Below are positions 8,457 through 45,276 of a stretch of DNA of 64,000 nucleotides, in pieces (the stretch's first letter is position 1; each line of letters starts with the position of its first letter). The notes under the pieces were generated by a model. The model was not told the origin of the DNA and made no database searches. It saw only the letters and a program-made list of their open reading frames with translations. Both the position numbers and the translations under genes were made by a program. This DNA comes from Luteolibacter sp. Y139 (lineage in GTDB: Bacteria > Verrucomicrobiota > Verrucomicrobiia > Verrucomicrobiales > Akkermansiaceae): the NCBI RefSeq assembly GCF_038066715.1, contig NZ_JBBUKT010000006.1, positions 62,001 to 126,000 on the forward strand. Direction: 5' to 3'.

Positions 8457-8520
8457 CCCGCAAACCTGGCTTGCGATTTTTCGTGGTCAGCTTTTCGGTG
8501 GATCGGGAATAGGAATAGCG

Positions 8521-10558: not shown

Positions 10559-10683
10559 GAAATTTCTGCAGGAAATCCGGTCAGCATCCGGACGGGAGGG
10601 GAATAAGTGCGGGTCGATCTTGTCCGGTGTCAACCGGTGCACGGCGACAACATCGACGCACAAAAAATACCTGAACGATCCCG

Positions 10684-13164: not shown

Positions 13165-13257
13165 GAGCTTTGTTCGCCTTGGGATTCGAGGTCCCGCGGA
13201 TACCGTGCGTGAAGGGGTTTGGGTTTTCCTTCCGCACGGCATCCAAGGCGGGCCCAC

Positions 13258-13291
13258 AAAAAGCCCCCGCCACCGGACGATGGCGAGGGCT
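13258..13291 (-). terminator. Rho-independent terminator of the Gly/Tyr-rich lipoprotein gene
   Basis: On the minus strand an 11-bp stem (agccctcgcca/tggcgggggct, one mismatch) with an 8-nt loop is followed by a run of five T. It lies 24 bp past the stop of the minus-strand gene. For the plus-strand LamG gene a separate 7-bp stem (13203-13209 with 13233-13239) may serve. Confidence 0.8.
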
Positions 13292-13314
13292 GTGAAGGGT
13301 TCGGTCAGACGAGA

Positions 13315-16061: not shown

Positions 16062-16070
16062 TAACCGCTC

Positions 16071-16796: not shown

Positions 16797-16811
16797 GCGG
16801 ACCACCGAATC

Positions 16812-25377: not shown

Positions 25378-28300
25378 ATGAGATCCCGGACTGCTTTCGC
25401 AGGAGCCCGCGCTTTGATTTATCCCGTTCTGGCTTTGCTGGGACTGGGTAGCGCTTTCTCCCAATCGATTGTTCAGGAGTACTACGTGCCGATGCCCGAG
25501 GCGCAGATTCGCCAGACGTTCCTGGCGCTGGCGAGCAACACGGGCACCACGATGGACACGACCATCTCGCTGGTGGCGGCCGTCAGTGGCACGAAGATCG
25601 TGTATGACCACTGGGAGGATGGCTATGAAGTCAATCTCGATAGCCCGACCCAGTCGACGACGCAGGTCTGGGGTGATGGCAATGATGCAAACGGCAAGCC
25701 ACCGGGATTTGCGAGCGATCCGAACGGGCTTCCTGCGGGCGCGGTGATGGCGCTGCGGAACCTGATCACGCTACCGCGGAATCCCACGTCCTTTCTCTAC
25801 GATGGCCGCGACCGCGTGGGCGCGACGCGTGGGATCGTGATGACCCGCTCGAGTTGGGCAACTACTCCAGGTGCCGTACTTGCGGATGCGACGGAGGTGA
25901 ATGCGACGGTCGACTGGGGGACGAGCTTCATCATTCCGGTGGGTGAGAATGAGATTTTCCCGACGCCTGCGACGGCGTCGATGTTCGAGCTGTGCTCGCT
26001 CTTCGTGCAGGCTTCGCAAGCAGGCACGACGGTGCAGATCGACAAGGATGCGAACGGCGTGGTGGATACGACGGTGACGCTGGGGCAGGGTGAGACCTAC
26101 TACCTCGAGCGTGGACTTCTAAGAGGCGCAACGGTGGTGGCCTCGAAGCCGGTGCAGACGCAGATCATCACCGGTGACATCGGTGGCAACTACGAGACGC
26201 GCTGGTACACGGTGGCGCCGACGGCCTTGTGGGGCACCCGCTACTGGAGCCCGGTGGGCACGGCCTCCAACGGCGATGACACCTACGTCTTCCTCTACAA
26301 TCCGGACAGCGCGGCGATCTCGGTGAACGTGACCACCCGCGTGGGAGCCAGCACGATCAGCATCCCGGCGAAGAGCAACTACATCTACCTGATGCCGCAG
26401 GAGTCCGGGGCGAGCTTCATCAATACGGCGAGCAAGCCCTTCTATGCGATTGCGACGGTGGGTGCGGAACCCACGGCGAATAACGTGCATGACTGGGGCT
26501 TCAGCCTGGTACAGGAGTCCGACCTCACCACGACGCTGTCGCTGGGTTGGGGTCCGGGCAGTTCGGAAACGGGCACGATCACGGTGAACGGTAACCCGGT
26601 GTGGGTGACTGCCACGAAGAACACGACCATCTACGTGGACTACAACGGCGATCGTGTGGGCTCGGTGACTGATCCGCTCGGTGGCAAGTGCGATGCTTCC
26701 TATCAGGTCGCTGCGCTGGAGGTGATGCGCCTCTTCGATCCGGACAAAGACCAGACCGGCATGCGCGTCTACACCGTCGATGGCACGCTGATCGCGGGCG
26801 CGTGGGGGCAGGATCCCGCCACCGCAGGTCCCGGCAACCCGTACCTCGATGCGGGCACCACGATCCCGTCGTTCCCCGTGCCGATCATTCGAAAGAGCTC
26901 GACCATCGCGGTGGATAACAGCCCCACCGGGCTGAGCAATGGCGACGTGCTCGAATACACCATCACCATGGACAATGCGGGCCTCGTCGCGCTCGGCAAT
27001 ACCGCGGTGATCGATACCTTCTCTACGAAGCTCGTCTATGTGGCGGGCAGTTCCTCGCGCGATGGCGTGGCCGTGGCCGACAATACCGGTTCGGGAGTCA
27101 CGGCCTTCCCATTCGATTCCAGCGGCACCACTTACAACATTCCGATCCTGGCCCGCGGCCAGCTCACGACGCTCAAGTATCGTGCGACCGTCAATGGGAC
27201 AGGAACGCTCGTGAACACGGTGAACACGTCCTATGCGGGCGTCACTTCCTCGAACAGCATCATCATTCCGAGTGGCGGCGTTCAGGCGCAGATCATCTTC
27301 AGCCTTTCGGGCGGCACTGCCACCACGGCGTATGCCGCGGGCGATGGCATCTACGTTCAGATGACGGATGCGGATGCGAACACCAGCAGCACCACGGTTC
27401 AGACCGTCACGGTGACGGTGCGAAACCCGACCACGGGTGACTATGAAACGATCACGCTCACCGAGACCGGCGTGAATACTGGTGTCTTCCGCAATACAAC
27501 GGCGCTCCCTTCGTCGTCCGCCTCGGGCACCAATCCGAATGACGGGACGCTGAATGTCTTCGCGGGTAATGGTCTCACGGTCACTTACAATGATCCGGTG
27601 TTCGGCGACACGGCGACGGCGAATGCCACGATCAGCACGCCTTCCGCGACGAAGTACCTTTACCTTAGCACGGATGGCGTGGGTTCGCCGGACCAGGATC
27701 TGGACCGCATCAGCCCGGCGATCTCCGGCGACACCACACCGGCCTTTACTTCGGACATCCAGGCCCCGGTGTCAGTGGCCGCGGGCACGCCGACGCTGGG
27801 AGCTTATGATGGTCCGTTGGTTGGCAGCACCGCGAGCGTGAGCATGAGCCATACGGTCAGCGGCACCAATCGCCTACTGCTGGTGGCTGTGAACTACGAG
27901 GACGACAGCACCGCCGGCATGACCATCAACACGGTCACCTTCAATGGCGTCGCGCTGACCCGGGTCTCGCGTGTACCTTCCTCGCAGGAAGCGGTCGCCG
28001 AGCTTTGGAGTCTGGTGAACCCACCGGCCGTCACCGCCAACGTGGTGGTGAACATGACTGCCTTCTCTTCGGCCGATGCCCTTCATCTGGCGGCGACTAC
28101 TTTCACGGGGGTGAACCAGACCACGCCGCTTGGCACGGTGGTGACCGCTGCCGCGGCGACGACTCCCATGACCATCACGGCCGGTGGCGCGACGGGTGAC
28201 CTCGTGTTCGTGACAGGTGCGGTCGATGATTCCCGCACTGCCACGCCGACGGGCACGGCGGCGACGGCGATCTGGAATGCCAATGCGGGCGGCACCGGTG

Positions 28301-31300
28301 ACGGTGTCCGCAGCGTGGGCAGCAGCCGCGCCGGGGATGGTAACAGCGCTGCCTTTGCCTGGACGCTGAGTGCGGCCGACGGTTGGGGTGCGATCGCGGT
28401 TCCGATCAAGCCCGCGGTCGCAAGTGGCACGCCGACCACGCTGAGCTTCACGCAGACGCCGACTCTTGCGGAGAGTCTTACGATTCCCTCCGGCTCGGTA
28501 ATGACCGGGACGGTGTATTACACGGCTTCCGCTGGCAGCTTGAGTGGCACGGTCCCGGTATCGGCAACGCTGCGCTACGGCTCCACTACCGTGGCTACGG
28601 TCAGCTCGGCCACAGCCAGCTCCCCGACGCTTTCTTTCACCTTCCCGGCACTTGCGAGTGCGGTGACGATTCCCGCGGGGCAGGCGTTGACGCTGGACAT
28701 CACGACGGCAGTGCCAGGTGTCGCCTTCCGCGTCGACTATGATCTCAATACCAAGAACTCGCTGATTTCGATCCCGACCAACACGGTGATCCACACGGAT
28801 TCGATCGGAGTTTACGATGCTCCCTATCCAGGTGGCACGCTGGTTACCAGCCCGGCGAATGGCCAGACCGTGTATGTTCGCGCGACCGCGGGTGACCCCT
28901 TCGGTGCCTATGACGTTACCAGTATGGATCTGGTGATCGATGCCAAGGACAGCAACACCGATGACATCACCACCACACTCAATGCGTCGAACGTGGTGGC
29001 GACCACGGGTGCCACGAAGACCTTCGAGTATGTCTGGCGCACGGGTGTGAGCACCGGTCTCTACACGATCGCCGGAACCGCCAAGGAAGGCTTGGAAACC
29101 TCGCCGGTCATTTCCTCGACGCGCTCGACCACGGTGACCTTGAGCTTCCTCGACCTCGGCACGCCTTCGACGACCGAGTTCCTGAATGCCGGTGGCACGC
29201 GCACGACGACCTATGCGGCGAATGAGTCGATCCGCATCCGCGTGACCGACCTCGACAAGAACAAGAACACGCTGCTGGCAGAGACGATCACCGTCACGCT
29301 GACCAATAGCAGCGGTGATTCTGAGACGGTCACGCTGACGGAGACCGGGCCGAATACAGGCGTCTTCACTGCCGTGGTGCCTGCTACATCGACCGGATCG
29401 CCGACGCAGAACAACGGCTCGCTTTACGCGCCGACGGGCAGCGTCATCAACGTGGTCTACACCGACGCGACGGATAGTAACGACAGCACGAGCGCCACGG
29501 CGACGGTGCCTGCTCCGACTGCAGTCGATGGGGTCTCGATCAGCAAGACGCTGATTTCGCCGCCCAACGGTCAGGCAAACGTGGGCGACGCGTTGCAGTA
29601 TCGCCTGCGGATCGTGAATACCGGTGGCACCGCGCTGAGCACGGTGGCCGTCACGGATACCTTCCCGGTGGCGAACCTGACCTACGTGTCCGCGACCACC
29701 ACACCGACCAGCGTTTCCGGCGGCACCATCTCCTGGTCGAATGTCGGCCCGCTGGCCATCGGCAGCTCCACCGAGATTTACCTGAACTTCACCGCGAATG
29801 CCGCCGGCACGACGGTCACGAACTCCGCTTCTGTCACGGCCGGCACCGCCAGCTCCAACAGCTCCGCGAACGTCACCATCTACCGCCCGCGCCTGCAGGT
29901 CACCAAGACAGTGACCAGCCCGACTTCCGGCACGGCAGGGAAGGGGGACAACGTGGTCTTCAGTATCGCGATCCAGAACAACGGCACCACGGCGATCCCG
30001 AACCTGCCGCTGGAAGATCTCTTCAGCAACGACACCTTCGAATACGTCACCGCCTCGCTCGCACCGAATGCCGTCGGCTCCGGCAGCCTGCTGTGGAATG
30101 ACATCACCGGCAGCGGCAGCCTCGCGGTGAATGCCACGCAGACCATCTCCGTGACGCTGAAGGTGAAGGGTGAAGCAAACCCGGCGACGAACGTTGCGGC
30201 GGTGAACTATGCGACCGACTCGAATGGCAGTGCCGTTCCCGCCTCCAGCAGCACCGCGACGATCGTGACCGCGGCGGCCTCGATCAAGGGCCTGGTGCTC
30301 GAGGACAAGGGCACCGCTGGATTCGGCGGTGGCGATACCGCGCTGTCGAACGTGCGCGTCACGCTTTACTCGGATCCGAACAACGACGGCGATCCTTCCG
30401 ATGGCACGGTGCTGGCGATCACGAACACGCTGGCGGATGGTAGCTATGAATTCCTGAACCTTGCGCTTGGCAACTACGTCGTCGTCGAGACCGACCCGAC
30501 CGGTTACAATAGCGTGACCGACATCGATGGCGTGAACGACAACCGCATCAAGGTTTCGCTCACGACGCTGACGGCGACCACCGGCCGCAACTTCCTCGAC
30601 AAATACATCGATCCCGCGCTCTACGCGAACATCACCGGCCAGGTCCGCAACGATACGAATGCCAACGGTCTCCTGACGGATCCAGACGCTGGTATCAGCG
30701 GTGTGACGATCGACCTCTACACCGATCCGAATGGCGACGGTGATCCGGTCGATGGCACACTCTACCTGACGGCGACGACGAGCGCGGTCAGTGGCTCGAT
30801 CGGCAATTACGCCTTCAACCTGATCCCGCCGGGCAGCTATGTGGTGGTCGAGACTGATCCTTCCGGCTTCTTCAGCACGGCGGACAAGACCTTGCCGAAC
30901 GACAACCGGATCGCAGTGACGGTGGTGGCTTCGCAGACTTCGACGGCCAACGACTTCCTCGACTCGAACGCGACGACGCTGGCTGGCACGATCGGGGACT
31001 CGGTGTGGGCCGACACGAACAACAATGGCATCTTCGACTCCGGTGAGTCGGGCATCGCGAACGTGACGATCCAGCTCTATCGCTCGACTGACACTCCGGG
31101 CGTCAGCACGCCGTATCGCACGACGTTCACGAACATCAGCGGTGTCTATTCCTTCGCGAATGTGCCGACGGGTCAGTATCTGATCTACATCCCGGCCGCG
31201 AACTTCGCGGGCAATGGGACGCTCGTCACCTCGCCGCTGTCCTCGACCCTGACGGTCACCACGGACAATCAGGTGAACAACGACGACAACGGCATCCAGA

Positions 31301-34300
31301 CCGCCTCCGGTGCCGCGGTGGTCAGCCCGACGATCACGATTTCCGCGAACGAGACCGAGAACACGATCGACTTCGGCTTCGTGCCGAATGCGAGCCTCGG
31401 CAGCATCACGGGCACGGTCCTGGCCGATAACAACAACGACAACGTCGGCGATACCGGCATCGCCGGCGTGGTGCTGCGGCTTTTCACCGATCCGAATGGC
31501 GACGGCAATCCAATCGATGGCGTCCAGGTGGGGAGCACGACGACTGCCGCGAATGGCAGCTACTCCTTCACCGGTCTGCCGCCGCGCGCCTATGTGGTGG
31601 TGCAGACGCAGCCCGCCGGGTACCTCGACGTTTCCGACAGCGATGGCGGAACGGTCAATCAAGTGGCCCTGGTGCTCACCGCGGGTGGCAGTGGCTTGGC
31701 GAACTTCGTGGAAGAACTGCCAGCCACCGTGACCGGTCACATCTACCGCGATGTGAATGGCAACGGCTCGCAGCAGACCGCCAGCGAGGCGAACTTCAAC
31801 AACATCCGCGTGGTCGTCACCGACGGCAACAACGCGACCCAGAACGTCTTCACCAATGCGAACGGCGATTGGACCGCCAGCGTGGCACCGGGCCTGATCA
31901 GCGCGAATGTGGATGAGACTGGGCTGCCAGTTGGTTGGACCCAGACCGAAGGCGATGACCCGACACAAGTGGCGGTCGCTGCCGGCGGCACTGTCAGTGC
32001 GGGCAATGACGGCTACTTCTATCCGGCGATCGTGACCGGCAAGGTCTATCGCGACGTGATGGGCGACAATACCGAGAACGGCACCGATACCGGCCTCGCA
32101 GGTGTGATCGTCCGCATCACCGACAGCCTCGGCGTGGTGCGGAATGTGACCACGAATGCGAGCGGCATCTGGACCGTGAGCGTGCCGCCCGGCGCAACGA
32201 TCATCGATGTGCTGGAGCTTGATGCGACCTTCCCGACCGGCGGGATCCACATGGAAGGCACCGATCCGAATACGGTGACCGCCGTGGCGAGTGCCACGAC
32301 CGATGGCGGCAAGGACGGCTATTATTTCCCGGCGACCGTGACCGGTCACCTCTACCTGGATGTGAATGGAAACTCGGTGCAGGACTCGGGCGAGCCTAAC
32401 CTGCAGAACATCGACATCCTCGTCACTGGCAGCAATGGCGTGGCGCAGACGGTGGTGACTAACAGTGGCGGCAACTGGACCGCCACGGTGACGCCGGGCG
32501 GTGGCACCGCGAAGGTTGTGACGACCGATCCGGATTTCCCGGCGGGTAGCGTGCAGCGTCAGGGCGATGACCCGACCAGCTTCGTCGCGGTGGCCGCTCA
32601 GGTGGTCTCCGGTGGCATCGACGGCTACTTCGTTCCGGCAACGATCATTGGCCACATCTATCGCGATGTGAATGGCAATGGCGTGCAGGACTCGGGCGAA
32701 CTGGGACTTGCCGGAGTGCCGGTGAAGATCACGAACAGCCTGGGTGCGATCCAGACCGTGACCACGGATAGCGCGGGCAACTGGACCGCGAGCGTGCCGC
32801 CCGGCACGACCATCGCCGACATCGATGATGCGAGCACAGCGATCCCGGCGGGATCGGTCCGCACACAGGGCACGGATCCGACGACCGTGACCGCGCTTGC
32901 GGGTGCCACCACGGATGCGGGCAAGGATGGCTACTATCAGGCAGGCACCGTCACCGGCCACGTCTACCGCGATGCGAACGGCAACGGTGTGGAAGACGCG
33001 GGTGATTCCGGCTTGGCCAACCTGAACGTTACCACGACCGATAGCCTCGGCGTGGTGCGCGTGGTGGTCACGGATGCGAGCGGCAACTGGACCGTGAGCG
33101 TGCCACCGGGCACTTTGAACTTCAGCGTGGATCGTTCCGATCCTGACTTCCCGGCGGGCGGCACCTTGAGCCAGGGCAGCGATCCGGGCAGCGCGATCGC
33201 CGCGGCAGGCCAGACGGTTGCCTCCAACAAGGTCGGCTTCCGCATCCTCGGCATCGTTACGGGTCACCTCTACATCGATGTGAACAACAACGGCGCGCAG
33301 GGTGCCGGCGAGCCGGACTTGGGAAGCGTGACCGTTACCCTCAGCGGCGGTCCTTCCGGCACTGTCACCACGGAGACCGATGCGAGCGGCAATTGGTCCG
33401 TGAGCGTGGCTCCCGGCACCTATTCGGTGAAGGTGGATACGCTGGATCCGCAATTCCCCGCCGGCTCCACGCAGAGCCAAGGCGCCGATCCGAACAACGT
33501 CACCGCGATCGCGGGACAGACGGTGAACGGCGGCATCGACGGCTACTACATCGCGACCTCCGTCACCGGCACGATCTATCGCGACCTGAATAACAACCAC
33601 GTCCGCGACTCGGGCGAACCGGGCATCGCCGATGTGAGCGTACAGGTCACCGATGTGAATGACACCACGCGCACGGTGGTGACCAACTCGAATGGGGTGT
33701 GGGTGGTCAGCGTGCCACCCGGCACGACGACCTCGGTGGTGCTGGAGAGCGGCCCGGTCTTCACCTCCGGCTACGTTCGCTCGCAAGGCACCGGCACTTC
33801 CACCGTGACCGCGGTGACGAGTTCGCCGACGTCCGTGGCGATCACCGGCTACTACTTCCCGGGCATCGTGAGCGGCCACCTCTTCAATGATCTCAATGGC
33901 AATGGTATCGAGGACTCCGGCGAGCCGGGTCTCGGCTTTGTGACCGTGAAGGTCACCGACAGCCTCGGCGCCATCCAATTCGTCGAGACCAATGCGAGCG
34001 GCAATTGGTCCGCGAGCGTGCCACCGGGCACAGTGATCGTGGACGTGGATGACACCGACGCGCAGATCCCGAGCGGTGCCACCCGCACCACGGGCACGGA
34101 TCCGATTTCCATCACCGCAGTGGCGGGCACGAATACTCCGGCCGGCTCCGCCATCGGCTTCTATCAGGCGGCCAGCGTGACCGGGCACCTGTATCGCGAT
34201 GTGAATGGCAACGGCCAGCAGGACTCGGGCGAACCGAACCTGCCGGGTGTGAATGTCTTCGTCGCCGATTCGAACCAAGTGACCCAGACCGTGGTCACGG

Positions 34301-37300
34301 ACTCGAACGGCAACTGGAGCGCCAGCGTGCCGCCGGGTCAGACGCTCATCGATATCGATGAAGCCGATCCGCAGTTCCCAACCGGTTCGATCCAGACGGA
34401 GGGTGTCGCGCTGACCACCGTGACCGCTTCGACCGTGACCGGTCCAGCGAGTGCGGGCAATTTCGGCTTCTATGTGCCGGCCGTGATCACCGGTCACCTC
34501 TACCTCGACCTGAATGGCAACGGGAACCAGGACTTCGTGGTCCACGACTTGGCGAACGTGAACATCCTCGTGACCGACTCGCGCGGACAAACGCAGACCG
34601 TGGTGACGAATTCGCACGGCGACTGGAGTGCGACGGTGCCTCCGGGACTGGCGACGGCGACGGTGGACAACACGGATCCCGAGTATCCCACGGGCTATGT
34701 GGTCACGCAGGGTGCTGTCACGACGAACTTCACCGCCGTGGCAGGTGCCACGACGGGCAGCACGCCGGTCGGCTTCTTCCTGCCGGCGCAGGTGAACGGC
34801 CACCTTTACATCGATACCAATGGCAACGGCCAGCAGGATAGCGGAGAACCGAACCTGGCGGGTGTGGATGTGTTCGTGACCAGCGCGATCAACAACGTGC
34901 AGACGGTCACGACCAATGCGACTGGCGACTGGATCGCCACCGTGCCTCCGGGCAATACCAAGATCGATATCAACGAGAATGATGCGCAGTATCCGGCTGG
35001 CTACGCGCAGACCGATGGCACTGATCCGAGCTTCGTGACCGCAGTGGGCGGGCTCAATACCTTTGCGGGCAATGATGGATTCTATCGCTCCGGCACCATC
35101 AGCGGCCACATCTTCAATGATCTCAATGGCAACGGCATCGAGGATTCCGGCGAGCCGGGCCTGGCAGGCGTAGACGTGCTGGTCACCGACGTGAATGGCA
35201 ACTCGCAGACCGTCACCACGGACGCGAGCGGCAATTGGGTGGCGACCGTGCCTCCGGGCCGCGCCGATGTGGACATCGTGAACACCAGCCCGGCGATCCC
35301 GGCGGGTGCGACGAAGTCCGCCGGTGACGATCCTTCCTTCGTGATCGCAGCGCCGGGTGTGAATGTGCCTTCCACCACGACGGTGGGCTTCTTCCAGGCC
35401 GCGACCGTCACGGGCCTGCTCTATGCAGACACGAATGGCAATGGCGTGCGCGATGCGGGTGAGCAGGGGATTGCTGACATCACCATTCTCATCACTGACA
35501 GTCTAAACAACCCGCGCACTGCGGTGACGGGTCCGGATGGGGTGTGGACCATCGCGGTGCCACCGGGCACGACCGTTGCGAAGGTCGATACACTCGATCC
35601 GCAATTCCCGGCAGGTGTCACTCAGATCGAAGGCTCGGATCCATCCACGGTGAATGCGGTGGCAGGCACCACGGTCAGCGCTGGCAATGACGGCTACTTC
35701 CTGCCTGCCCAACTGACCGGAACGATCTATCGCGACGTGAATGGCAATGGATCGCAAGGCAGCGGCGAGCCCGGCCTCAGCGGCGTGACCGTTCGCATTA
35801 CCGACAGCCTCGGGGTGGTGCGCGATGTCATCACGAACGCATCCGGCGTGTGGACGGTGAGCGTTCCTCCGGGTGACACCATCGTGGATGTGATCAATCA
35901 GGATGGCACCTTCCCGAGTGGTGGTGTGCTGCGAGAGGGGATCGATCCACAGACGCTGACTGCCATCGCAGGTGAGACCGTGATTGCGGGCAAGGCAGGC
36001 TACTACTTCCCCGCCACCGTGACTGGTCGTGTCTTCTTCGACGTGAATGGCAATGGCACGCTGGATAACGGCGAGACCGGCCTGGCGAATCTCGATGTGG
36101 TGGTCACCGACAGCAACAATGTCAGCCAGACGGTGACCACGGATGGCAATGGCTTCTGGTCCGCCAGCGTGCCGCCGGGATCGACCCAAGCGAAGTTGCT
36201 CGAAAGCGATCCTCAGTATCCGACCGGAGCGCAGCGCACCTCGGGTGCCGATCCGACTTCCGCGAATCCGACGGCGACGCAGGTCGTGGTGACGGCTCCG
36301 GTTGGCTTCTTCTTCCCGGCCACTATCACCGGCATCGTGTATGCCGACACGAATGGCAATGGTTCGCAGCAAGGGGGCGAGAGCGGCTACGTGAACGTGA
36401 CCGTCCGCATCACCGATAGTCAGGGGGCGATCCAGGATGTGGTGACCACCACCGGCGGCGTGTGGACGGCCAGCGTGCCGCCCGGCATCGCGACCGTGCT
36501 GGTCACCGACGCGAATGGCGTGATTCCCGCCAACTCGATCCTGCGCGAGGGCACGAATCCGAGCACGGTGGCTGCCGTGGCGGGCGTGACTTCGAATGCG
36601 GGCAAGGATGGTTATTTCCTGCCCGCGACCGTGAGCGGCCATCTCTTCGTCGACAACGATGGCAATGGTGTGGAAGGCCCCGGCGATGCGCCGATGGTGG
36701 GCGTCGATATCATTGTGACCGATTCCAATGGCACCGTGACCACGGTGACCACCGATGCGAACGGCAACTGGGCGATCCAGGTGCCACCGGGCACCACGCT
36801 CGTGGCGGTGGATAAGAACGATCCGGACTTCCCGCTGGGTGGCACGCTGGTCACCGGCACCGATCCGAAGACGGTTAACGCGGTGGCGGATGTGAACACT
36901 CCCGCGGGCACGCTGGCTTACCGCGTCCTCGGAATCGTTCGTGGCCACCTCTACTACGACGTGAACAACAACGGCATGCAGGATCCGACGGAGCCTGCGA
37001 TGTCCGGCATCCCGGTGCAGGTCACGGATTCGCTCAATGCGGTCCAAGTGGTCTTGACCGATACCGATGGCAACTGGAACGCGACCGTTCCACCGGGCAC
37101 GACCTCGGCGCTGGTGCTGACGGGTGATGCACGATTCCCAAGCAGTGCGGTGCAGACGGAAGGCACGAATCCTTCGAGCGTTTCCGCACTGGCAGGCCAA
37201 ACCCTCAGCGCGGGAACCGATGGCTACTACATCGCCACCTCGGTGACCGGCACCATCTACGTGGATCTCAACAACAACAACGTCCGCGATGCGGGTGAGC

Positions 37301-40300
37301 CCGGCTTGGCTGGAGTGACGGTCCGTGTGACCGACGTGAACAGCGCGCAGCGCAATGTGGTGACGGACAGCGAAGGTGTCTGGGTGGCAAGCGTTCCTGC
37401 GGGCAGCACGACCTCGCTAGTGCTGGAGACCGATCCGGTCTTCACCGCCGGCTACGTCCGCACGCAGGGCAGTGGGACCTCCACCGTGACCGCGGTGACG
37501 AGTTCGCCGACATCCGTGGCGATCACCGGCTACTACTTCCCTGGAACGCTGACGGGCACGCTCTTCGACGACAAGAATGGCAACGGCGTACAGGACAGCG
37601 GCGAGCTGGGCCTGTCCGGCGTGGACGTGACCATCACTGCCTCGAATGGCGTGGTGACCGTGGTGACGACGAATGGCACCGGGCAGTGGACCGCGCCAGG
37701 CATCGCCCCCGGCAATGCCGTGGTGACCGTGGATCGCGGCGACCTGCCACCCGGGGTGGTGGTGACTGCCGGCTCGGATCCGACGGGAGTGACCGTGGTT
37801 TCCGGCGTAACCACCACGGTGCCCGGCACGGCCTTCTTCCTTCCGGCGACCGTGAGCGGCCATCTCTTCAAGGATGTGAATGGCAACGGCCTGCAGGATG
37901 AGGGCGAGCCGAACCTGCCGAACGTGAATGTCTTCGTGGCCACCTCGACCGGCACGGTGATCACCGTGGTCACGGATGAGAACGGCGATTGGACGGCTAC
38001 CGTGCCGCCGGGCACCACGCTCATCGACATTGATGAAAATGATCCGGACTTCCCGGTGGGCGGTGCGCTCACCACGGGGCAGCCGGTGACGACGGTCACC
38101 GCAGTCGCTGGCTCGAATACGAGCGCAGGCACTCTGGCCTATTTCGTGCCGGCCTTCATCAGCGGTCACCTCTACCTCGATACGAACGGCAATGGTTCAC
38201 AGCAAGGAGGAGAGAGCAACTTGGCGAACCTCGACCTGGTCATCGTGATCGTGGATTCGAATGGCAATACCACGCGCGTCACGACGGACAGCGCGGGTAA
38301 CTGGAAGGCAACGGTGCCTCCGGGTCCGGCGACCGCCACGGTGGACTCGACCGATCCGGAGTATCCGGCGGGGGCGCTCCTGACCCAGGGGGCGATCACG
38401 ACCAGCTTCGATGCGGAGCCGAACGTCACGAAGGTGGGAACGCCTGTGGGCTTCTTCTTCCCGGCGACCCTGACCGGTCACCTCTACATTGATGCCAATG
38501 GCAACGGCTCCCAAGACGAGGGCGAGCCGAACCTGCCGGATATCAGCGTGTCGGTGCTCAATTCGAACGGGGTGACCGTCATCGTGCAAAGCGATGAGCA
38601 CGGCAACTGGACGGCCAGTGTGCCGCCGGGTGAGACCACGGTGGTGGTGGACCGGAATGATCCGGACTTCCCGACCGGTGCCTATGTGCTGACCGATGGC
38701 ACCGAGCCGACCATTCTTCCGGCCGAGAACGTGGTGGCCAATACCTCGAACTTCGGAGGCAATGATGGCTACTATCTCGCGGGCAGCGTGAGCGGTCGGG
38801 TGTATGCCGATACGAATGGCGATGGCGATCTGGATGCGGGTGAGCCCGGCATCGGTGGGGTGGAAGTGCGCATCACGACTTCCACCGGCCAGATCCTCAC
38901 GGTCTTCACGCTGGCCAATGGCAACTGGAGTGCCCCAGTGCCTCCGGGCCAGACGATCGTGGATGTGATCGACAGCAGCACGGCGATCCCGGCTGGCTCG
39001 ATTCGCAAGGAAGGATCCGACACGGTGAGCGTCACTGCGGCTGCCGGAGTGGATGTCACCGCTGGCAATACCGGCTACTTCCTGCCGGGCAGCATCAGCG
39101 GCTTCGTCCAGGCTGATACGAATGGTGATGGTGCCCCTGATCTCGGCATTGCGGGTGTGTCCGTGGGACTGTTCGACACGAACAATGCGGTGATTGCTTC
39201 CACGACCACGGGGGCGAATGGAGCCTATACCTTTGGCAACCTGCCACCGGGCAACTACGTGATCGTCCAACTGCAGCCGGCAGGCTATATCAGTGTGTCC
39301 GACGTGGATGGCGGTGATCCCGACACGATCGGTGATGTGACGCCGGTGGTGCTCACGGCTGGTGGAACGGTGACGGGCCGGAACTTCCTGGAGCGCTCGC
39401 TCAAGACGCCAAACACCTTCACGGAATGGCAGGCCGGCAATCCGCTGGGTGGCCAGAATAGCCCCACGCAGAACCCGGATGGCGACATTTCGAACAACCT
39501 GATCGAATACGCCTTCGCGCTCGATCCGGCCAGCGGTGCGGGCAATCCGTTCTGCCTGGTGCCCTCGCTCGCCAATAATGGCACGATCGATGCGGTCTAC
39601 ACCCGCACCGCAGGCGGAGCGACCGATGTGACCTATCAGTTGCAGACGATCTCCAGTCTCACGCTCTCGCCGGGTGGATGGACGACGGTGAGTCTGGCTC
39701 CCGCGAACTTCACCGTGACCGACAATGGTGATGGCTCGGAGACGGTGCGCATTCTCGACCTGCAATCGCTGACGGGCTTCATCAATTCCGGCTTCGTCCG
39801 GATGCGCGTGAGCCTGGATGCGGATCACAATGGCACGCCCGAGGCGGTGGCCGTGACGGAAGTCGGCGGCTGGACCGCCACGAGCCTGGGCAGTGGCTGC
39901 CGCACCTATGGCAATCCGTTCGTGTCCTGCCCGCCATTCTCCGGGGTCATCGATGCGGTGAATGGCCAGCAGATCACGCTGGGCACTTCCGCGGCTGGTG
40001 TGAATCTCGCGACGGTCTTGCCTTCCGGCTCGTCGTATTACCTCGAAGTCACCGCTGGCGATTGGGCTGGCCACCGCTTAGATGTGACGACCCCGGGTGT
40101 GGGCACGCTTGCGCTGGCGAATGATTCGGATCTCTTCTCGGAGACCGGGCCGTTCAACACGCTGACGGGGGCATTGCCCGCGAGCTTGGCTGGCGACAGC
40201 TTCGTGATCCGCAAACAGTGGTCGCTCGGCGAGATGTTCCCGGTCGCTGCCTTCACGGCGACTGGCAGCCAAGACACGGCCGATCAGGTGCAGACCTTTG

Positions 40301-40836
40301 CGAATGGCGTCTACACGGCCTACTGGCTCTATGACGATGCCGGCACGAAGCGCTGGCTGCGCGTGGGTGACAGCAGCATGTCCGACCACACGGCGACGAT
40401 CGTGCCGCCGGGCGCGGGCACCTTTGTCACCTGCCTGAATACGCCAGGCTCGCTGCTGGCCTATGGCAAGGTCCGCTCGAATGACTTCGTGATGCCACTG
40501 CAAGCTGGCAACAACCTGGTGCGGGGCGGTTATCCGCTGGATGAGTCACCGTTCTCGCGCGGCATGACGATCGGGAATGGCTTCTATGGTGACCGCGACT
40601 TCAAGAAGGCGGACGAGATCTTCCTGTGGCGCGGCGATGCGACGCCGGATGCCTCGGGCTATGACACCTACTGGCTGGTCAATGCGTCGACGACGCTGAG
40701 ACGCTGGGCGAAGGTGGGCGACTCGACGCTCCAGGTGCAGGACAACGCCCTTCTCTTCAAACGCGACACGAGCGCATTCCTCAAACTGAGCAACCCGCTG
40801 CCATCCCACAAGGTGACCCGTCCTTGGCAGCCCTGA
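25378..40836 (+). CDS. Giant secreted SdrD-B/DUF11 repeat protein (5152 residues)
   Basis: A surface protein of about half a megadalton. Order: signal peptide (1-29, LALLGLGSAFSQS); IgGFc-binding-like N-terminal domain (about 32-505, IVYDHWEDGYEVNL and STTQVWGDG); a DUF11 domain (about 507-635); several beta-sandwich domains (about 637-1380) including a repeated pair ending TLTETGxNTGVF; two more DUF11 domains (about 1382-1632); four SdrD-B-like domains (starting near 1634, 1751, 1869 and 2008); 24 repeats of about 102 residues (2116-4570); another SdrD-B-like domain (4571-4675); a NPDGDISNNLIEYAF module (about 4681-4835); and a C-terminal region (about 4838-5152) that resembles TIGR02597 proteins. 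No LPXTG or PEP-CTERM tail. The start has no Shine-Dalgarno. A 25-bp gap to the next gene suggests an operon. An adhesin or matrix role is inferred. Confidence 0.9.
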   Translation: MRSRTAFAGARALIYPVLALLGLGSAFSQSIVQEYYVPMPEAQIRQTFLALASNTGTTMDTTISLVAAVSGTKIVYDHWEDGYEVNLDSPTQSTTQVWGDGNDANGKPPGFASDPNGLPAGAVMALRNLITLPRNPTSFLYDGRDRVGATRGIVMTRSSWATTPGAVLADATEVNATVDWGTSFIIPVGENEIFPTPATASMFELCSLFVQASQAGTTVQIDKDANGVVDTTVTLGQGETYYLERGLLRGATVVASKPVQTQIITGDIGGNYETRWYTVAPTALWGTRYWSPVGTASNGDDTYVFLYNPDSAAISVNVTTRVGASTISIPAKSNYIYLMPQESGASFINTASKPFYAIATVGAEPTANNVHDWGFSLVQESDLTTTLSLGWGPGSSETGTITVNGNPVWVTATKNTTIYVDYNGDRVGSVTDPLGGKCDASYQVAALEVMRLFDPDKDQTGMRVYTVDGTLIAGAWGQDPATAGPGNPYLDAGTTIPSFPVPIIRKSSTIAVDNSPTGLSNGDVLEYTITMDNAGLVALGNTAVIDTFSTKLVYVAGSSSRDGVAVADNTGSGVTAFPFDSSGTTYNIPILARGQLTTLKYRATVNGTGTLVNTVNTSYAGVTSSNSIIIPSGGVQAQIIFSLSGGTATTAYAAGDGIYVQMTDADANTSSTTVQTVTVTVRNPTTGDYETITLTETGVNTGVFRNTTALPSSSASGTNPNDGTLNVFAGNGLTVTYNDPVFGDTATANATISTPSATKYLYLSTDGVGSPDQDLDRISPAISGDTTPAFTSDIQAPVSVAAGTPTLGAYDGPLVGSTASVSMSHTVSGTNRLLLVAVNYEDDSTAGMTINTVTFNGVALTRVSRVPSSQEAVAELWSLVNPPAVTANVVVNMTAFSSADALHLAATTFTGVNQTTPLGTVVTAAAATTPMTITAGGATGDLVFVTGAVDDSRTATPTGTAATAIWNANAGGTGDGVRSVGSSRAGDGNSAAFAWTLSAADGWGAIAVPIKPAVASGTPTTLSFTQTPTLAESLTIPSGSVMTGTVYYTASAGSLSGTVPVSATLRYGSTTVATVSSATASSPTLSFTFPALASAVTIPAGQALTLDITTAVPGVAFRVDYDLNTKNSLISIPTNTVIHTDSIGVYDAPYPGGTLVTSPANGQTVYVRATAGDPFGAYDVTSMDLVIDAKDSNTDDITTTLNASNVVATTGATKTFEYVWRTGVSTGLYTIAGTAKEGLETSPVISSTRSTTVTLSFLDLGTPSTTEFLNAGGTRTTTYAANESIRIRVTDLDKNKNTLLAETITVTLTNSSGDSETVTLTETGPNTGVFTAVVPATSTGSPTQNNGSLYAPTGSVINVVYTDATDSNDSTSATATVPAPTAVDGVSISKTLISPPNGQANVGDALQYRLRIVNTGGTALSTVAVTDTFPVANLTYVSATTTPTSVSGGTISWSNVGPLAIGSSTEIYLNFTANAAGTTVTNSASVTAGTASSNSSANVTIYRPRLQVTKTVTSPTSGTAGKGDNVVFSIAIQNNGTTAIPNLPLEDLFSNDTFEYVTASLAPNAVGSGSLLWNDITGSGSLAVNATQTISVTLKVKGEANPATNVAAVNYATDSNGSAVPASSSTATIVTAAASIKGLVLEDKGTAGFGGGDTALSNVRVTLYSDPNNDGDPSDGTVLAITNTLADGSYEFLNLALGNYVVVETDPTGYNSVTDIDGVNDNRIKVSLTTLTATTGRNFLDKYIDPALYANITGQVRNDTNANGLLTDPDAGISGVTIDLYTDPNGDGDPVDGTLYLTATTSAVSGSIGNYAFNLIPPGSYVVVETDPSGFFSTADKTLPNDNRIAVTVVASQTSTANDFLDSNATTLAGTIGDSVWADTNNNGIFDSGESGIANVTIQLYRSTDTPGVSTPYRTTFTNISGVYSFANVPTGQYLIYIPAANFAGNGTLVTSPLSSTLTVTTDNQVNNDDNGIQTASGAAVVSPTITISANETENTIDFGFVPNASLGSITGTVLADNNNDNVGDTGIAGVVLRLFTDPNGDGNPIDGVQVGSTTTAANGSYSFTGLPPRAYVVVQTQPAGYLDVSDSDGGTVNQVALVLTAGGSGLANFVEELPATVTGHIYRDVNGNGSQQTASEANFNNIRVVVTDGNNATQNVFTNANGDWTASVAPGLISANVDETGLPVGWTQTEGDDPTQVAVAAGGTVSAGNDGYFYPAIVTGKVYRDVMGDNTENGTDTGLAGVIVRITDSLGVVRNVTTNASGIWTVSVPPGATIIDVLELDATFPTGGIHMEGTDPNTVTAVASATTDGGKDGYYFPATVTGHLYLDVNGNSVQDSGEPNLQNIDILVTGSNGVAQTVVTNSGGNWTATVTPGGGTAKVVTTDPDFPAGSVQRQGDDPTSFVAVAAQVVSGGIDGYFVPATIIGHIYRDVNGNGVQDSGELGLAGVPVKITNSLGAIQTVTTDSAGNWTASVPPGTTIADIDDASTAIPAGSVRTQGTDPTTVTALAGATTDAGKDGYYQAGTVTGHVYRDANGNGVEDAGDSGLANLNVTTTDSLGVVRVVVTDASGNWTVSVPPGTLNFSVDRSDPDFPAGGTLSQGSDPGSAIAAAGQTVASNKVGFRILGIVTGHLYIDVNNNGAQGAGEPDLGSVTVTLSGGPSGTVTTETDASGNWSVSVAPGTYSVKVDTLDPQFPAGSTQSQGADPNNVTAIAGQTVNGGIDGYYIATSVTGTIYRDLNNNHVRDSGEPGIADVSVQVTDVNDTTRTVVTNSNGVWVVSVPPGTTTSVVLESGPVFTSGYVRSQGTGTSTVTAVTSSPTSVAITGYYFPGIVSGHLFNDLNGNGIEDSGEPGLGFVTVKVTDSLGAIQFVETNASGNWSASVPPGTVIVDVDDTDAQIPSGATRTTGTDPISITAVAGTNTPAGSAIGFYQAASVTGHLYRDVNGNGQQDSGEPNLPGVNVFVADSNQVTQTVVTDSNGNWSASVPPGQTLIDIDEADPQFPTGSIQTEGVALTTVTASTVTGPASAGNFGFYVPAVITGHLYLDLNGNGNQDFVVHDLANVNILVTDSRGQTQTVVTNSHGDWSATVPPGLATATVDNTDPEYPTGYVVTQGAVTTNFTAVAGATTGSTPVGFFLPAQVNGHLYIDTNGNGQQDSGEPNLAGVDVFVTSAINNVQTVTTNATGDWIATVPPGNTKIDINENDAQYPAGYAQTDGTDPSFVTAVGGLNTFAGNDGFYRSGTISGHIFNDLNGNGIEDSGEPGLAGVDVLVTDVNGNSQTVTTDASGNWVATVPPGRADVDIVNTSPAIPAGATKSAGDDPSFVIAAPGVNVPSTTTVGFFQAATVTGLLYADTNGNGVRDAGEQGIADITILITDSLNNPRTAVTGPDGVWTIAVPPGTTVAKVDTLDPQFPAGVTQIEGSDPSTVNAVAGTTVSAGNDGYFLPAQLTGTIYRDVNGNGSQGSGEPGLSGVTVRITDSLGVVRDVITNASGVWTVSVPPGDTIVDVINQDGTFPSGGVLREGIDPQTLTAIAGETVIAGKAGYYFPATVTGRVFFDVNGNGTLDNGETGLANLDVVVTDSNNVSQTVTTDGNGFWSASVPPGSTQAKLLESDPQYPTGAQRTSGADPTSANPTATQVVVTAPVGFFFPATITGIVYADTNGNGSQQGGESGYVNVTVRITDSQGAIQDVVTTTGGVWTASVPPGIATVLVTDANGVIPANSILREGTNPSTVAAVAGVTSNAGKDGYFLPATVSGHLFVDNDGNGVEGPGDAPMVGVDIIVTDSNGTVTTVTTDANGNWAIQVPPGTTLVAVDKNDPDFPLGGTLVTGTDPKTVNAVADVNTPAGTLAYRVLGIVRGHLYYDVNNNGMQDPTEPAMSGIPVQVTDSLNAVQVVLTDTDGNWNATVPPGTTSALVLTGDARFPSSAVQTEGTNPSSVSALAGQTLSAGTDGYYIATSVTGTIYVDLNNNNVRDAGEPGLAGVTVRVTDVNSAQRNVVTDSEGVWVASVPAGSTTSLVLETDPVFTAGYVRTQGSGTSTVTAVTSSPTSVAITGYYFPGTLTGTLFDDKNGNGVQDSGELGLSGVDVTITASNGVVTVVTTNGTGQWTAPGIAPGNAVVTVDRGDLPPGVVVTAGSDPTGVTVVSGVTTTVPGTAFFLPATVSGHLFKDVNGNGLQDEGEPNLPNVNVFVATSTGTVITVVTDENGDWTATVPPGTTLIDIDENDPDFPVGGALTTGQPVTTVTAVAGSNTSAGTLAYFVPAFISGHLYLDTNGNGSQQGGESNLANLDLVIVIVDSNGNTTRVTTDSAGNWKATVPPGPATATVDSTDPEYPAGALLTQGAITTSFDAEPNVTKVGTPVGFFFPATLTGHLYIDANGNGSQDEGEPNLPDISVSVLNSNGVTVIVQSDEHGNWTASVPPGETTVVVDRNDPDFPTGAYVLTDGTEPTILPAENVVANTSNFGGNDGYYLAGSVSGRVYADTNGDGDLDAGEPGIGGVEVRITTSTGQILTVFTLANGNWSAPVPPGQTIVDVIDSSTAIPAGSIRKEGSDTVSVTAAAGVDVTAGNTGYFLPGSISGFVQADTNGDGAPDLGIAGVSVGLFDTNNAVIASTTTGANGAYTFGNLPPGNYVIVQLQPAGYISVSDVDGGDPDTIGDVTPVVLTAGGTVTGRNFLERSLKTPNTFTEWQAGNPLGGQNSPTQNPDGDISNNLIEYAFALDPASGAGNPFCLVPSLANNGTIDAVYTRTAGGATDVTYQLQTISSLTLSPGGWTTVSLAPANFTVTDNGDGSETVRILDLQSLTGFINSGFVRMRVSLDADHNGTPEAVAVTEVGGWTATSLGSGCRTYGNPFVSCPPFSGVIDAVNGQQITLGTSAAGVNLATVLPSGSSYYLEVTAGDWAGHRLDVTTPGVGTLALANDSDLFSETGPFNTLTGALPASLAGDSFVIRKQWSLGEMFPVAAFTATGSQDTADQVQTFANGVYTAYWLYDDAGTKRWLRVGDSSMSDHTATIVPPGAGTFVTCLNTPGSLLAYGKVRSNDFVMPLQAGNNLVRGGYPLDESPFSRGMTIGNGFYGDRDFKKADEIFLWRGDATPDASGYDTYWLVNASTTLRRWAKVGDSTLQVQDNALLFKRDTSAFLKLSNPLPSHKVTRPWQP
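31723..39087 (+). repeat. 24 tandem SdrD-B-like coding repeats, about 306 bp each, arranged as 2 x 12
   Basis: Each unit follows one pattern: VTGHLYxDxNGNGxQDSGEP (a calcium-loop type motif), then xxVxVTDSxGxxxTVxTxxxG, NWTASVPPGTT, an acidic stretch with DPxFPAG, and GTDPxTVTAVAG ending DGYYxP. Units 1-12 occupy 31723-35400 (3678 bp) and units 13-24 occupy 35401-39087 (3687 bp). Matching units twelve apart share private features: 2 and 14 share VRITDSLGVVR, 7 and 19 share VTAVTSSPTSVAITGYYFPG, 10 and 22 share PATATVDxTDPEYP. This indicates a block duplication. Confidence 0.88.
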
Positions 40837-40861: not shown

Positions 40862-41530
40862 ATGAGACTTCATCCAGCAGTGCAAGCGGCGGCAGCGTTC
40901 CTGCTTTTCGCCGTCGCGCAGGCCACGGCCGTGACCATCAATTGGGGAAGCCCGGTGCTTTCCTCGACGGTCAATAGCCAAGGCCAGGAAATCGACTCCA
41001 GCTATCATGTGGAACTCGGTGCCTTCGCCAATGGCTTCGTCCCCACCGAGCAAAACATGAGCGAGTGGGCCTCGAACTGGCGTACCTTCAGCGTGGCCAC
41101 CTATGTCGCCGAGTTCGGCAGCTTCACCGGCACGGCGGACTTGGTGGCGGGCGGTGCCAGCAGCGATCCGATGGCGAGCCTGGGGATGAATTTCTCCGAC
41201 GTGGAGGCCTACGTGTGGATCTTCAATTCAGCGACGATGTCGGCGAACACGGAGTGGTTCCTGGGCCGCAGCGATAGCTGGGTGATGCCGACCGCTCCTC
41301 TCGAGACCGATTGCTGCGACGACCGGCTGCCGACGCAGTGGTCGATCTCAGACCTGAGGCCGGGGGATACTCCTGTCTATGGAGGCCAGGGCCAGGTCGC
41401 CGGCGCAGGCTCCGCGTCAAATCCGGGGAACTACGACATCCAGACCTACACGGTGCCGGAGACTTCCTCCTTGCTACTTGCGTCGGTGGGTCTGCTCTTC
41501 ACTTTCTGGCGCCGCCGCCCGGTCTCCTGA
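40862..41530 (+). CDS. Secreted protein with PEP-CTERM-like sorting tail
   Basis: A 222-residue protein with signal peptide (MRLHPAVQAAAAFLLFAVAQ) and a C-terminal sorting signal of PEP-CTERM type: VPETSS, a hydrophobic helix LLLASVGLLFTFW and RRRPVS. In such proteins an exosortase is thought to cut near the motif and hand the protein to the outer surface. The body has FANGFVPTEQNMSEWASNW and a possible disulphide CC pair (LETDCCDDR). It begins 25 bp after the giant gene and is probably cotranscribed. The body is related to that of the next gene. No exosortase gene is in the window. Confidence 0.83.
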   Translation: MRLHPAVQAAAAFLLFAVAQATAVTINWGSPVLSSTVNSQGQEIDSSYHVELGAFANGFVPTEQNMSEWASNWRTFSVATYVAEFGSFTGTADLVAGGASSDPMASLGMNFSDVEAYVWIFNSATMSANTEWFLGRSDSWVMPTAPLETDCCDDRLPTQWSISDLRPGDTPVYGGQGQVAGAGSASNPGNYDIQTYTVPETSSLLLASVGLLFTFWRRRPVS

Positions 41531-41546
41531 ACGACTCCACTGCCTG

Positions 41547-42458
41547 ATGTTTTCCCTGCGTGCCCTCGTTGTTCGCCTGATCCTCGTGATGGTTCTCACG
41601 AAGGCGATGGAAGCGAGGACGCTGCGGTGGTTCTGCGACGCGCAGACGGTGAATCTCGGCAGTGATGGCACGCCGATGGATGGCGGGTTCCGTTTCGAGG
41701 TGGGGGTGTTTGCCTCCGGCTTCACGCCGACTACGGCGAATACGTCGCAGTGGGCCGCGAATTGGAGTGCGGCCCAGCGGACGGTTTACAACGCGACAAC
41801 GAAGGTCTTCACGAGCCAATACACGGTGACCTCGAATGCCGCGCCTTTCACGGTCGGCGCCGTTGCTTATGTGTGGGGCTTCGGCGGCAGGGCGGGGAAT
41901 GAGTGGACGCTCTTCCGCGCGACGTCATGGACGTGGCCGCTGTCCGATACGCTGAATCCCACCGCGATCAGCTGGAACGCGAAGGACGCGACACAGGTGG
42001 TGGTGGGTTCGATCCATTCGACGGGGACTCCGTTCCTCATGCAATCGTCCGCCGTGACCCATAGCGTGCCGCCTACCTCGACCTATGCGCAGTGGCAGAA
42101 TGAGGAATTGTCCGGTGTCGCACTGAATGGCCCCGAGGAGGATGCCGATGGTGACGGGATCAAAAACGTTCAGGAATTCGTCTTCGGTACTCGTCCGAAG
42201 GTCGCCGACTTGTTGCCGCCGGTAGCGTCCGGGATGGTGGGAAGCGGAGCGGACCGCGCGATTCAGCTCAGCATTCCTCGCCGGCTTGACCGGAGCGCGA
42301 GCCTGTCGGTCGAGAGTTCACCAGAGCTTGTCACATGGGGCTCTGCCATGGCGGGTGCAACGGTGGTGAGTAATGGTGCGGAGGCGTGGGTGCTGCGCTT
42401 TCCGGTCGGAAGTTCGGACAGGCGGTTCTTCCGGATTGTCTCTGCGCCGGTTCCGTAG
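41547..42458 (+). CDS. Secreted paralogue of the upstream PEP-CTERM protein, with DxDGDG C-terminal module
   Basis: A 303-residue protein starting MFSLRALVVRLILVMVLTKA, 16 bp after the previous stop. Residues about 25-175 match the body of its neighbour: GFRFEVGVFASGFTPT then SQWAANW and VAYVWGFGG parallel the neighbour's VELGAFANGFVPT, SEWASNW and EAYVWIFNS. Instead of a PEP-CTERM tail it ends with EEDADGDGIKNVQEFVFGTR and a beta domain with a VESSPELVTW motif. An in-frame start further upstream, inside the neighbour, is rejected for lack of a signal peptide. Function unknown; likely a surface partner of the giant protein. Confidence 0.82.
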   Translation: MFSLRALVVRLILVMVLTKAMEARTLRWFCDAQTVNLGSDGTPMDGGFRFEVGVFASGFTPTTANTSQWAANWSAAQRTVYNATTKVFTSQYTVTSNAAPFTVGAVAYVWGFGGRAGNEWTLFRATSWTWPLSDTLNPTAISWNAKDATQVVVGSIHSTGTPFLMQSSAVTHSVPPTSTYAQWQNEELSGVALNGPEEDADGDGIKNVQEFVFGTRPKVADLLPPVASGMVGSGADRAIQLSIPRRLDRSASLSVESSPELVTWGSAMAGATVVSNGAEAWVLRFPVGSSDRRFFRIVSAPVP

Positions 42459-44961: not shown

Positions 44962-45276
44962 TACTTGGGTTGTTAGGTGGGTTGGCAATTTCGCGACGAT
45001 ATTGGGTTTGTCGCGAGAGCCATCAGATGCCGACAAGGCAAGATGCCTTGGATGCATCGTGGCTCATCATCAGGCTATGTAATGAATGCCGTGATTGCCT
45101 ACCTCCCCATGTCGGGAGTTTTACCTGGTACCATCATCGATCACGACGATCGTTGAAACTTGAATTCACCGTGGATGGTGGATCCAAGTTTCAAGGACTC
45201 CAAGTAGTGAGAGCTTTGGTAGTCTGAAAGCCTCTGCTTGTCTCCGGCCCCTGTGGGCGCATAGTAGCCGCAAGCT
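44962..45276. other. Divergent gene-free region with stem-loops
   Basis: About 315 bp between the GH76 gene and the next plus-strand gene, lower in GC than the genes. It holds a 7-bp hairpin caaggca-aga-tgccttg (45034-45050) and the long stem-loop at 45153-45194. Promoters for both flanking genes should be here but none is clear. No supported gene. Confidence 0.55.
45153..45194. other. Long stem-loop, 17 of 18 pairs
   Basis: The arms at 45153-45170 (ttgaaacttgaattcacc) and 45177-45194 (ggtggatccaagtttcaa) pair with one mismatch and one T-G pair around a 6-nt loop (gtggat). No T-run follows on either strand, so it is not a standard terminator. It lies 82 bp upstream of the plus-strand start and 192 bp upstream of the GH76 start. 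Confidence 0.7.

Follow-up and report, generated by a model that had tools for sequence, protein, structure and literature searches.

A 12-domain higher-order repeat in a giant, probable surface-stalk protein of Luteolibacter sp. Y139 and its relatives

The copying of several protein domains at once is an established process (PMC1553488), and the standard examples of super-repeats are titin and nebulin (PMC10665226, PMC1553488). According to the available text of the titin report, the domains of the A-band are arranged in blocks, and those occupying the same place in different blocks resemble each other most; this tendency is weak in the blocks at either end, a feature that we count as a further likeness to the array described below (PMC10665226). 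The accessible part of a survey of domain repeats describes seven-domain blocks in nebulin, with several domains copied at a time and a peak in the autocorrelation, and states that domain repeats are far commoner in eukaryotes (PMC1553488). Here, a stretch of 64,000 nucleotides from Luteolibacter sp. Y139 (contig NZ_JBBUKT010000006.1, positions 62,001 to 126,000; referred to as the window) was analyzed, which contains a giant gene encoding a tandem array of 24 domains of the SdrD B type, arranged in two blocks of 12. Whereas titin mixes immunoglobulin and fibronectin type III domains along a muscle filament, this array consists of one domain family, with 12 domains per block and two or three blocks, in a bacterium and with no known partner. 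It differs from the nebulin case in the number of domains per block, in its bacterial origin and in that the block count could be compared between species. As in titin and nebulin, domains in the same place are more alike than others (save in places 3, 8 and 12) and the blocks run in register, with two blocks in four species, three in the relative designated G264, and 36 units with two register jumps in the relative designated G009.

The staphylococcal proteins SdrD and SdrG are sortase-anchored and contain only a few B domains, whereas the arrays described here comprise 24–36 units. A sortase-anchored protein of the MSCRAMM type (microbial surface components recognizing adhesive matrix molecules) is expected to carry a C-terminal LPXTG-type signal; no match to the pattern LPxT[GAN] was found in the last 200 residues of the window protein. 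The B domains of SdrD and SdrG (PF17210) resemble the units in family, predicted fold and calcium-type loop, and the available text describes them as binding three calcium ions and withstanding approximately 2 nN (PMC6232131). The Periscope Proteins, as far as the accessible part of their description goes, share the tandem stalk domains, the distal functional domain and the variable repeat number, but differ in having highly identical repeats and variation between close strains (PMC8201768); in the window array neighboring units are 42% identical, and the variation is between species (one genome per species) and by 12 units. Giant1–5 of Apilactobacillus kunkeei are likewise very large and extracellular, with extended repeats inside the protein and a C-terminal part that is conserved, but are built of other domains, and repeat blocks are not described in the available part of that report (PMC12863079). 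A literature search, whose scope left most subscription journals outside, gave no bacterial super-repeat among the matches listed. Block duplication of domains is already known, and what appears to be new here is the bacterial 12-domain case.

The initial annotation, made from the sequence alone, had cut the array into 24 units of about 102 residues and had proposed that its two halves arose by one tandem duplication of a 12-unit block. The array was found to consist of exactly 24 units of 101–106 amino acids (aa) (31723..39087), and the lengths given for the two halves (3678 and 3687 bp) were reproduced to the base pair. All-against-all comparison revealed a mean protein identity of 0.534 between units n and n+12, compared with means of 0.388–0.452 at the other 22 offsets, and a mean DNA identity of 0.619, compared with 0.529–0.577; offset 12 alone is in clear excess at both levels. 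When the two halves were matched at random 100,000 times, the observed mean was never reached, for protein and DNA alike. The best DNA self-match of the gene, which needs no cutting into units, is a single 3.4-kb diagonal (positions 6604–9929 against 10285–13619 of the coding sequence; 65.2% identity over 3423 columns) at an offset of 12.03 units, where a diagonal displaced by about 3680 bp had been predicted. The excess at offset 12 over other offsets, on which the proposal had been made to depend, is plainly present, and the likeness is real.

The signal is uneven along the block. In the window alone, 4 of the 12 pairs are reciprocal best matches (2/14, 7/19, 9/21 and 10/22); when the four species with 24 units (see below) were pooled and unit effects removed, the number rose to seven (2/14, 5/17, 6/18, 7/19, 9/21, 10/22 and 11/23). 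The pooled residual amounted to 3.84 standard deviations (SD) at offset 12, the next highest being 1.16 at offset 23, which comprises a single pair. When each unit was divided into thirds, 14 of 36 partner thirds, spread over nine pairs, exceeded the 99% point of 396 non-partner thirds; pairs 1/13 and 4/16 did so in the last third only. The private matches initially seen in nearly every pair are thereby upheld for pieces of units in 9 of 12 pairs. Partner likeness has no support in pair 3/15, which had been listed, nor in pairs 8/20 and 12/24, which had not. With profiles built from the other three species, the partner 12 units away was the best of the other 23 positions for 14 of 24 units in the window's genome (G000) and in G003, and for 15 of 24 in G011 and in G015.

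Other periods were also considered. Growth by single units was rejected as an origin of the pattern because excess identity was absent from every other offset represented by more than two pairs, and a sub-period of 3, 4 or 6 inside the block was rejected as well, these offsets being at background in the four 24-unit species. The likeness of units 8 and 12 exceeds expectation (4.4 SD, four species pooled), so a few exchanges at other distances have occurred. At four-fold degenerate sites, the n/n+12 pairs of the window differ by 0.29–0.57, non-phase pairs by 0.47 on average and orthologous units of the window's genome and G003 by 0.44; the lowest values (0.29–0.36, on few sites) were obtained for pairs 5/17, 7/19, 9/21 and 11/23. 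These sites were taken as near saturation, and dating by synonymous sites was dropped.

The distribution of the array was examined by searching for the N-terminal head of the protein in 57 relatives and in 18 genus, 386 order and 260 family genomes (these sets overlap, and the window's own genome is among them). Heads at least 81% identical were detected in five further genes, each of them with the array, which comprises 24 units in G003, G011 and G015 and 36 in G264 and G009. G015 is Haloferula sp. BvORR071 of the Verrucomicrobiales (12,672 overlapping bases are identical to the named record). The same-position unit was the best window match for 23 of 24 units in G003, all 24 in G011 and 16 of 24 in G015. 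Because these three other species have the same 24 units in an unchanged order, the super-repeat predates the species, which bears out the initial view that the duplication is old. Offset-12 identity was reached by none of 20,000 order shuffles in each of the window's genome, G003, G011, G015 and G264. An assembly artefact might be suspected in the window's genome, which is a draft of 31 contigs, but is practically negligible as an explanation: four separate assemblies agree on 24 units in the same order, both 36-unit arrays lie within single-contig genomes, and the copies differ by approximately 35% in DNA along the diagonal.

Among genes with less similar heads, G054 contains 13 units of this kind and the others examined contain 0–5 (one each in G050, G029, G233, G066 and G077, two each in G241, G252 and G134, and five in G136). 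No unit above 60 bits was detected in G150, G129, G113, G143, G359, G169, G008, G013, G014 or G017, nor in the paralogue within the window's own genome. The 13-unit array of G054 was rejected as a 12-unit precursor, every phase score (phase being the place within the block) being negative. The comparison of relatives for 12- and 24-unit alleles, as initially suggested, therefore yielded 24-unit and also 36-unit forms, but no 12-unit allele.

The array of G264 is the strongest support for copying by blocks. Its 36 units run through phases 1–12 three times, in register, with an identity of 0.695 at offset 12 and 0.702 at offset 24, compared with about 0.50 at others. Because the best-scoring phase of a few single units (e.g. 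1, 6, 28 and 30) is a different one, the register is supported by the entire run and not by every unit in it. Units 1, 3 and 4 of block 2 lie closer to block 2 of the 24-unit species; in block 3 this is clear for unit 1 only. From phase 5 on, the copies are closer to each other than to the mean of the 24-unit species, with the exception of the phase-8 unit of block 2; much of the array was accordingly copied or homogenized after this line split. The three blocks are a mosaic of the two block types with later homogenization.

The best phase path of G009 (1–4, 11–12, 1–10, 5–12, 1–12) was identical at three jump penalties, although several single units score poorly on it. The 12 phases are retained in this array, but the register jumps twice, by six units each time; the two jumps offset each other in length, and the total is 36. 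Its strongest offset is 18, reached by none of 20,000 shuffles (223 reached the observed value at offset 6, and 131 at offset 12); the phase path agrees with the DNA self-matches seen at these three offsets, and the offset-6 signal fits the register jumps. The path is equivalent to the loss of six units from one block together with a gain of the same six phases in the following block, or to a single out-of-register exchange. Since the super-repeat arose, both the number of blocks and their order have changed. The initial statement that the array is stable could not be upheld in view of the mosaic and homogenization in G264, the register jumps in G009 and the within-species likeness of pair 7/19.

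A tree of 132 units from five species (the window's, G003, G011, G015 and G264; 102 columns) was used to follow the phases. The 12 phase labels require 15 changes on this tree, compared with a minimum of 11 and a mean of 101.1 for shuffled labels (0 of 200 shuffles were as low); many inner forks are weak, given 102 columns for 132 rows, and label shuffles ignore near-copies. Seven phases (2, 5, 6, 7, 9, 10 and 11) form a single group each, two changes are needed for phases 1, 3 and 12, and three for phases 4 and 8. In a tree of concatenated blocks, the three G264 blocks group together (support 100/99), as do the four first blocks from the 24-unit species (99/99). In the best tree, the corresponding second blocks do not form one clade, that of G015 pairing with a G009 block; constraining them to one clade was not rejected (approximately unbiased test, p-AU 0.273).

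These data bear on the idea that no block was ever duplicated and that the likeness between units 12 apart came from repeated gene conversion or from selection restricted to certain places. The patchiness of the likeness fits it, as does pair 7/19, which is more alike within than between species in five of six species pairs. We nevertheless regard it as very improbable: nine of the 12 pairs show the signal, the DNA diagonal is unbroken, the phase labels cluster on the five-species tree, and the continuous, in-register third block of G264 would not be expected. Moreover, for conversion to act at a constant distance of 12 units, a block would already have to exist.

The support for duplication of a 12-unit block is strong, but a single duplication of one 12-unit ancestor, as first proposed, is not established. 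Since no 12-unit allele was found and 36-unit relatives exist, the last event may alternatively have been a loss with the same period, an ancestor with three blocks (36 units) having lost one in the window's line. In keeping with this, G264 and G009 do not group in the head tree, although both have 36 units, and the unit of the 24-unit species that their last units resemble is unit 12 and not unit 24. On the other hand, the mutual closeness of the G264 units from phase 5 makes part of its third block look later, and the forks among G015, G264, G009 and the rest are unresolved in the head tree. Such a loss is possible, but we hold it to be rather unlikely.

The units were assigned to the SdrD_B family (PF17210), two array segments scoring 310 and 219.8 bits (cut-off 29.7); most single units also pass, and a few do so only together with their neighbors or not at all. 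The unit profile matches SdrD (PDB 10ps; E-value 1e-15). An AlphaFold2 model of units 6–8 was obtained with a mean predicted local distance difference test (pLDDT) score of 95.8 and a predicted template modelling (pTM) score of 0.75, and its top Foldseek match was again 10ps (SdrD A2-A3-B1-B2; E-value 2.3e-15, query TM-score 0.45). According to this model, these three units have the SdrD-B-type fold. Most units contain a loop of the form D-x-N-x-N-G-x-x-D-x-G-E, which aligns with the DxNxNG loops of SdrD in 10ps and whose residues are highly conserved over the 132 units (D10 in 100%, N12 94%, N14 92%, G15 90%, D18 77%, E21 86%); the units may bind calcium. Isopeptide-bonded pilin domains of the CnaB/SpaA type, in which a conserved lysine makes the bond, were considered and rejected because lysine is scarce (mean 0.52 per unit; in no column do more than 20 of 132 units have Lys).

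We consider it highly probable that the gene encodes a surface stalk with a 12-domain higher-order repeat and a mechanical role, whose block was copied within the gene and then diverged, with patchy in-phase exchange. The data themselves show the 12-unit period, its age (before these species), the difference in copy number, the domain type and the predicted fold of three units. Twelve already differing SdrD-B-type domains would have been multiplied as one 3.7-kb block inside the gene, with unequal recombination as the putative copying route; the copies would have diverged, with patchy exchange between in-phase units, and related species now have two or three blocks (24 or 36 units). The SdrD-B type of the units and their conserved calcium-type loop lead us to read the array as a long stalk. 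We infer that the protein is exported and probably located on the cell surface. There, the tandem domains with their calcium loops could form an extended rod that holds the head away from the cell; with about 4 nm per unit, the window array would be approximately 0.1 micrometre long. Addition of a 12-unit block would lengthen such a stalk without placing near-identical domains side by side.

The separation of like domains in this way has already been proposed in print: in the available texts, adjacent domains of large proteins are reported to be usually less than 50% identical (PMC8201768), and selection against aggregation is suggested to favor the copying of several domains together (PMC1553488). 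In the window, adjacent units have a mean identity of 0.42, with none of 23 pairs at 0.6 or above, compared with 0.53 and 3 of 12 for in-phase pairs; in G264, 4 of 35 adjacent and 27 of 36 in-phase pairs reach at least 0.6. Exact DNA matches of at least 20 bp are, per unit pair, commoner in phase in all six arrays.

Several observations weigh against parts of the proposed history and function. In all six arrays, the identity between adjacent units is similar to that between other out-of-phase units (0.42 versus 0.43 in the window), which gives no sign of selection for unlike neighbors. A bias of recombination towards whole blocks was likewise unsupported, exact matches of at least 25 bp being no fewer out of phase than in phase in five of the six arrays (in/out of phase: G003 0/2, G011 1/6, G015 0/2, G264 20/24, G009 2/9, window 2/0). 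Changes are not always of whole blocks, given the two six-unit register jumps of G009. Five of the 12 pairs are not reciprocal best matches even with four species pooled, and no 12-unit precursor that would give the direction of change was found among the genes examined. The pTM score of the three-unit model is only 0.75, and a straight rod goes beyond that model. Finally, the head gave no confident fold match that would name a ligand.

It was also considered whether the 12-domain block serves a function of its own, as a measure of length (the ruler role proposed for titin) or as a binding unit, with selection keeping multiples of 12. All six arrays have 24 or 36 units, even that of G009 with its cancelling jumps, and phase-private columns are most numerous in phases 2, 7 and 10 (8, 9 and 9, respectively). 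Shared descent, however, explains most of these counts, few independent events being available; no partner is known, and phases 3, 8 and 12 are hardly kept between blocks. We judge such a ruler unlikely. The same low credence is given to the wider proposal of a bacterial titin-like super-repeat in which the block is the unit of stalk length, present in two or three copies per species, with multiples of 12 selected and block copying as the favored route. The repeat-of-repeats layout of titin and nebulin in a bacterial stalk, with six species that can be compared and block counts of two and three, makes it testable why tandem-domain proteins grow by blocks and not by single domains, and whether a block acts as a unit of length.

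A second super-repeat was identified in a gene with a homologous head (54% identical) in G136, from another family of the order. This gene (L039/L040) contains 31 complete immunoglobulin-like He_PIG units of 87–90 residues (approximately residues 2570–5340 of the joined frame; assigned by Pfam on a 300-residue piece), arranged as a 7-unit, 613-residue super-repeat. Identity is 0.80–0.82 at offsets 7, 14 and 21, and 0.56–0.63 at the other offsets up to 23. The array resembles that of the window in its head and in having a super-repeat, but differs in domain family and in its seven-unit period; because the domain family differs, the block copying is taken as independent. This separate seven-domain case suggests that the pattern is not a single accident. 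Under the wider, unlikely proposal given above, block copying of mutually different domains would be a favored route of stalk building in these bacteria.

Two further genes of the head family have other arrays. The window's genome contains a second giant gene (L028, contig C5; 3585 aa) with a head 40% identical and a different SdrD_B array of approximately 121-residue units. Gene L041 of G066 (6412 aa) has dense units of approximately 107 residues with high identity at every multiple listed, unlike those of the window.

The features of the giant gene and of its surroundings are listed in Table 1. The gene is one open frame of 5152 codons without an internal stop. Its product begins with a signal-like stretch (judged by eye alone), followed by the head of approximately 520 residues, which relatives across the order have, by DUF11 domains and a few divergent SdrD_B-type domains, and then by the array. 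The IgGFc_binding family (PF17517) was matched by 3 of 22 head-family members (best 5.9e-10); the head of the window protein gave no match to it. Sequence comparison of the head and the C-terminal region with the PDB gave no relative. An antisense open frame of 2411 codons (27874–35109, minus strand) spans the gene and half of the array; it is perhaps a by-product of codon use (GC content at third codon positions 0.80).

Table 1. Position of the giant gene, its parts and the genes directly downstream (window coordinates)
Feature	Coordinates	Strand	Remarks
Whole giant stalk-protein gene	25378..40836	+	5152 aa
N-terminal head, residues 21–541	25438..27000	+	alignment of 22 sequences; conserved across the order
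Divergent SdrD_B-type domains upstream of the array	30625..31689	+	
Block 1 (units 1–12)	31723..35400	+	3678 bp
First arm of the best DNA self-match	31981..35306	+	65.2%, 3423 columns
Unit 7	33556..33861	+	best-kept phase; 0.78 identical to unit 19
Block 2 (units 13–24)	35401..39087	+	3687 bp
Second arm of the best DNA self-match	35662..38996	+	
Unit 19	37237..37542	+	partner of unit 7
One divergent SdrD_B-type domain downstream of the array	39088..39363	+	
C-terminal region	39445..40833	+	463 aa; conserved in related giant proteins
Downstream small gene 1	40862..41530	+	222 aa; downstream in 5/5 array-bearing relatives
Downstream gene 2	~41547..42458	+	start set at an internal ATG; in 5/5 relatives

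Eight upstream and eight downstream frames of the window (some of which may not be genes) were compared with flanks of approximately 9–10 kb in the five array-bearing relatives, and only the two directly downstream were found in place. These two genes are related to each other (32% identity over 121 columns). The first contains a PEP-CTERM-like end that scores below the threshold (PF07589, 17.9 bits; cut-off 20.7).

A frame encoding a glycosyl hydrolase of family 76 with ricin-type lectin domains (43375–45057, minus strand) is located near the giant gene. It was not found downstream in the flanks of the relatives, and a 78-residue match (40% identity) was detected upstream in G011. Further away, three consecutive genes (15393–17753) encode pseudopilin-like proteins with N-methylation motifs, the middle one scoring under the Pfam cut-off.

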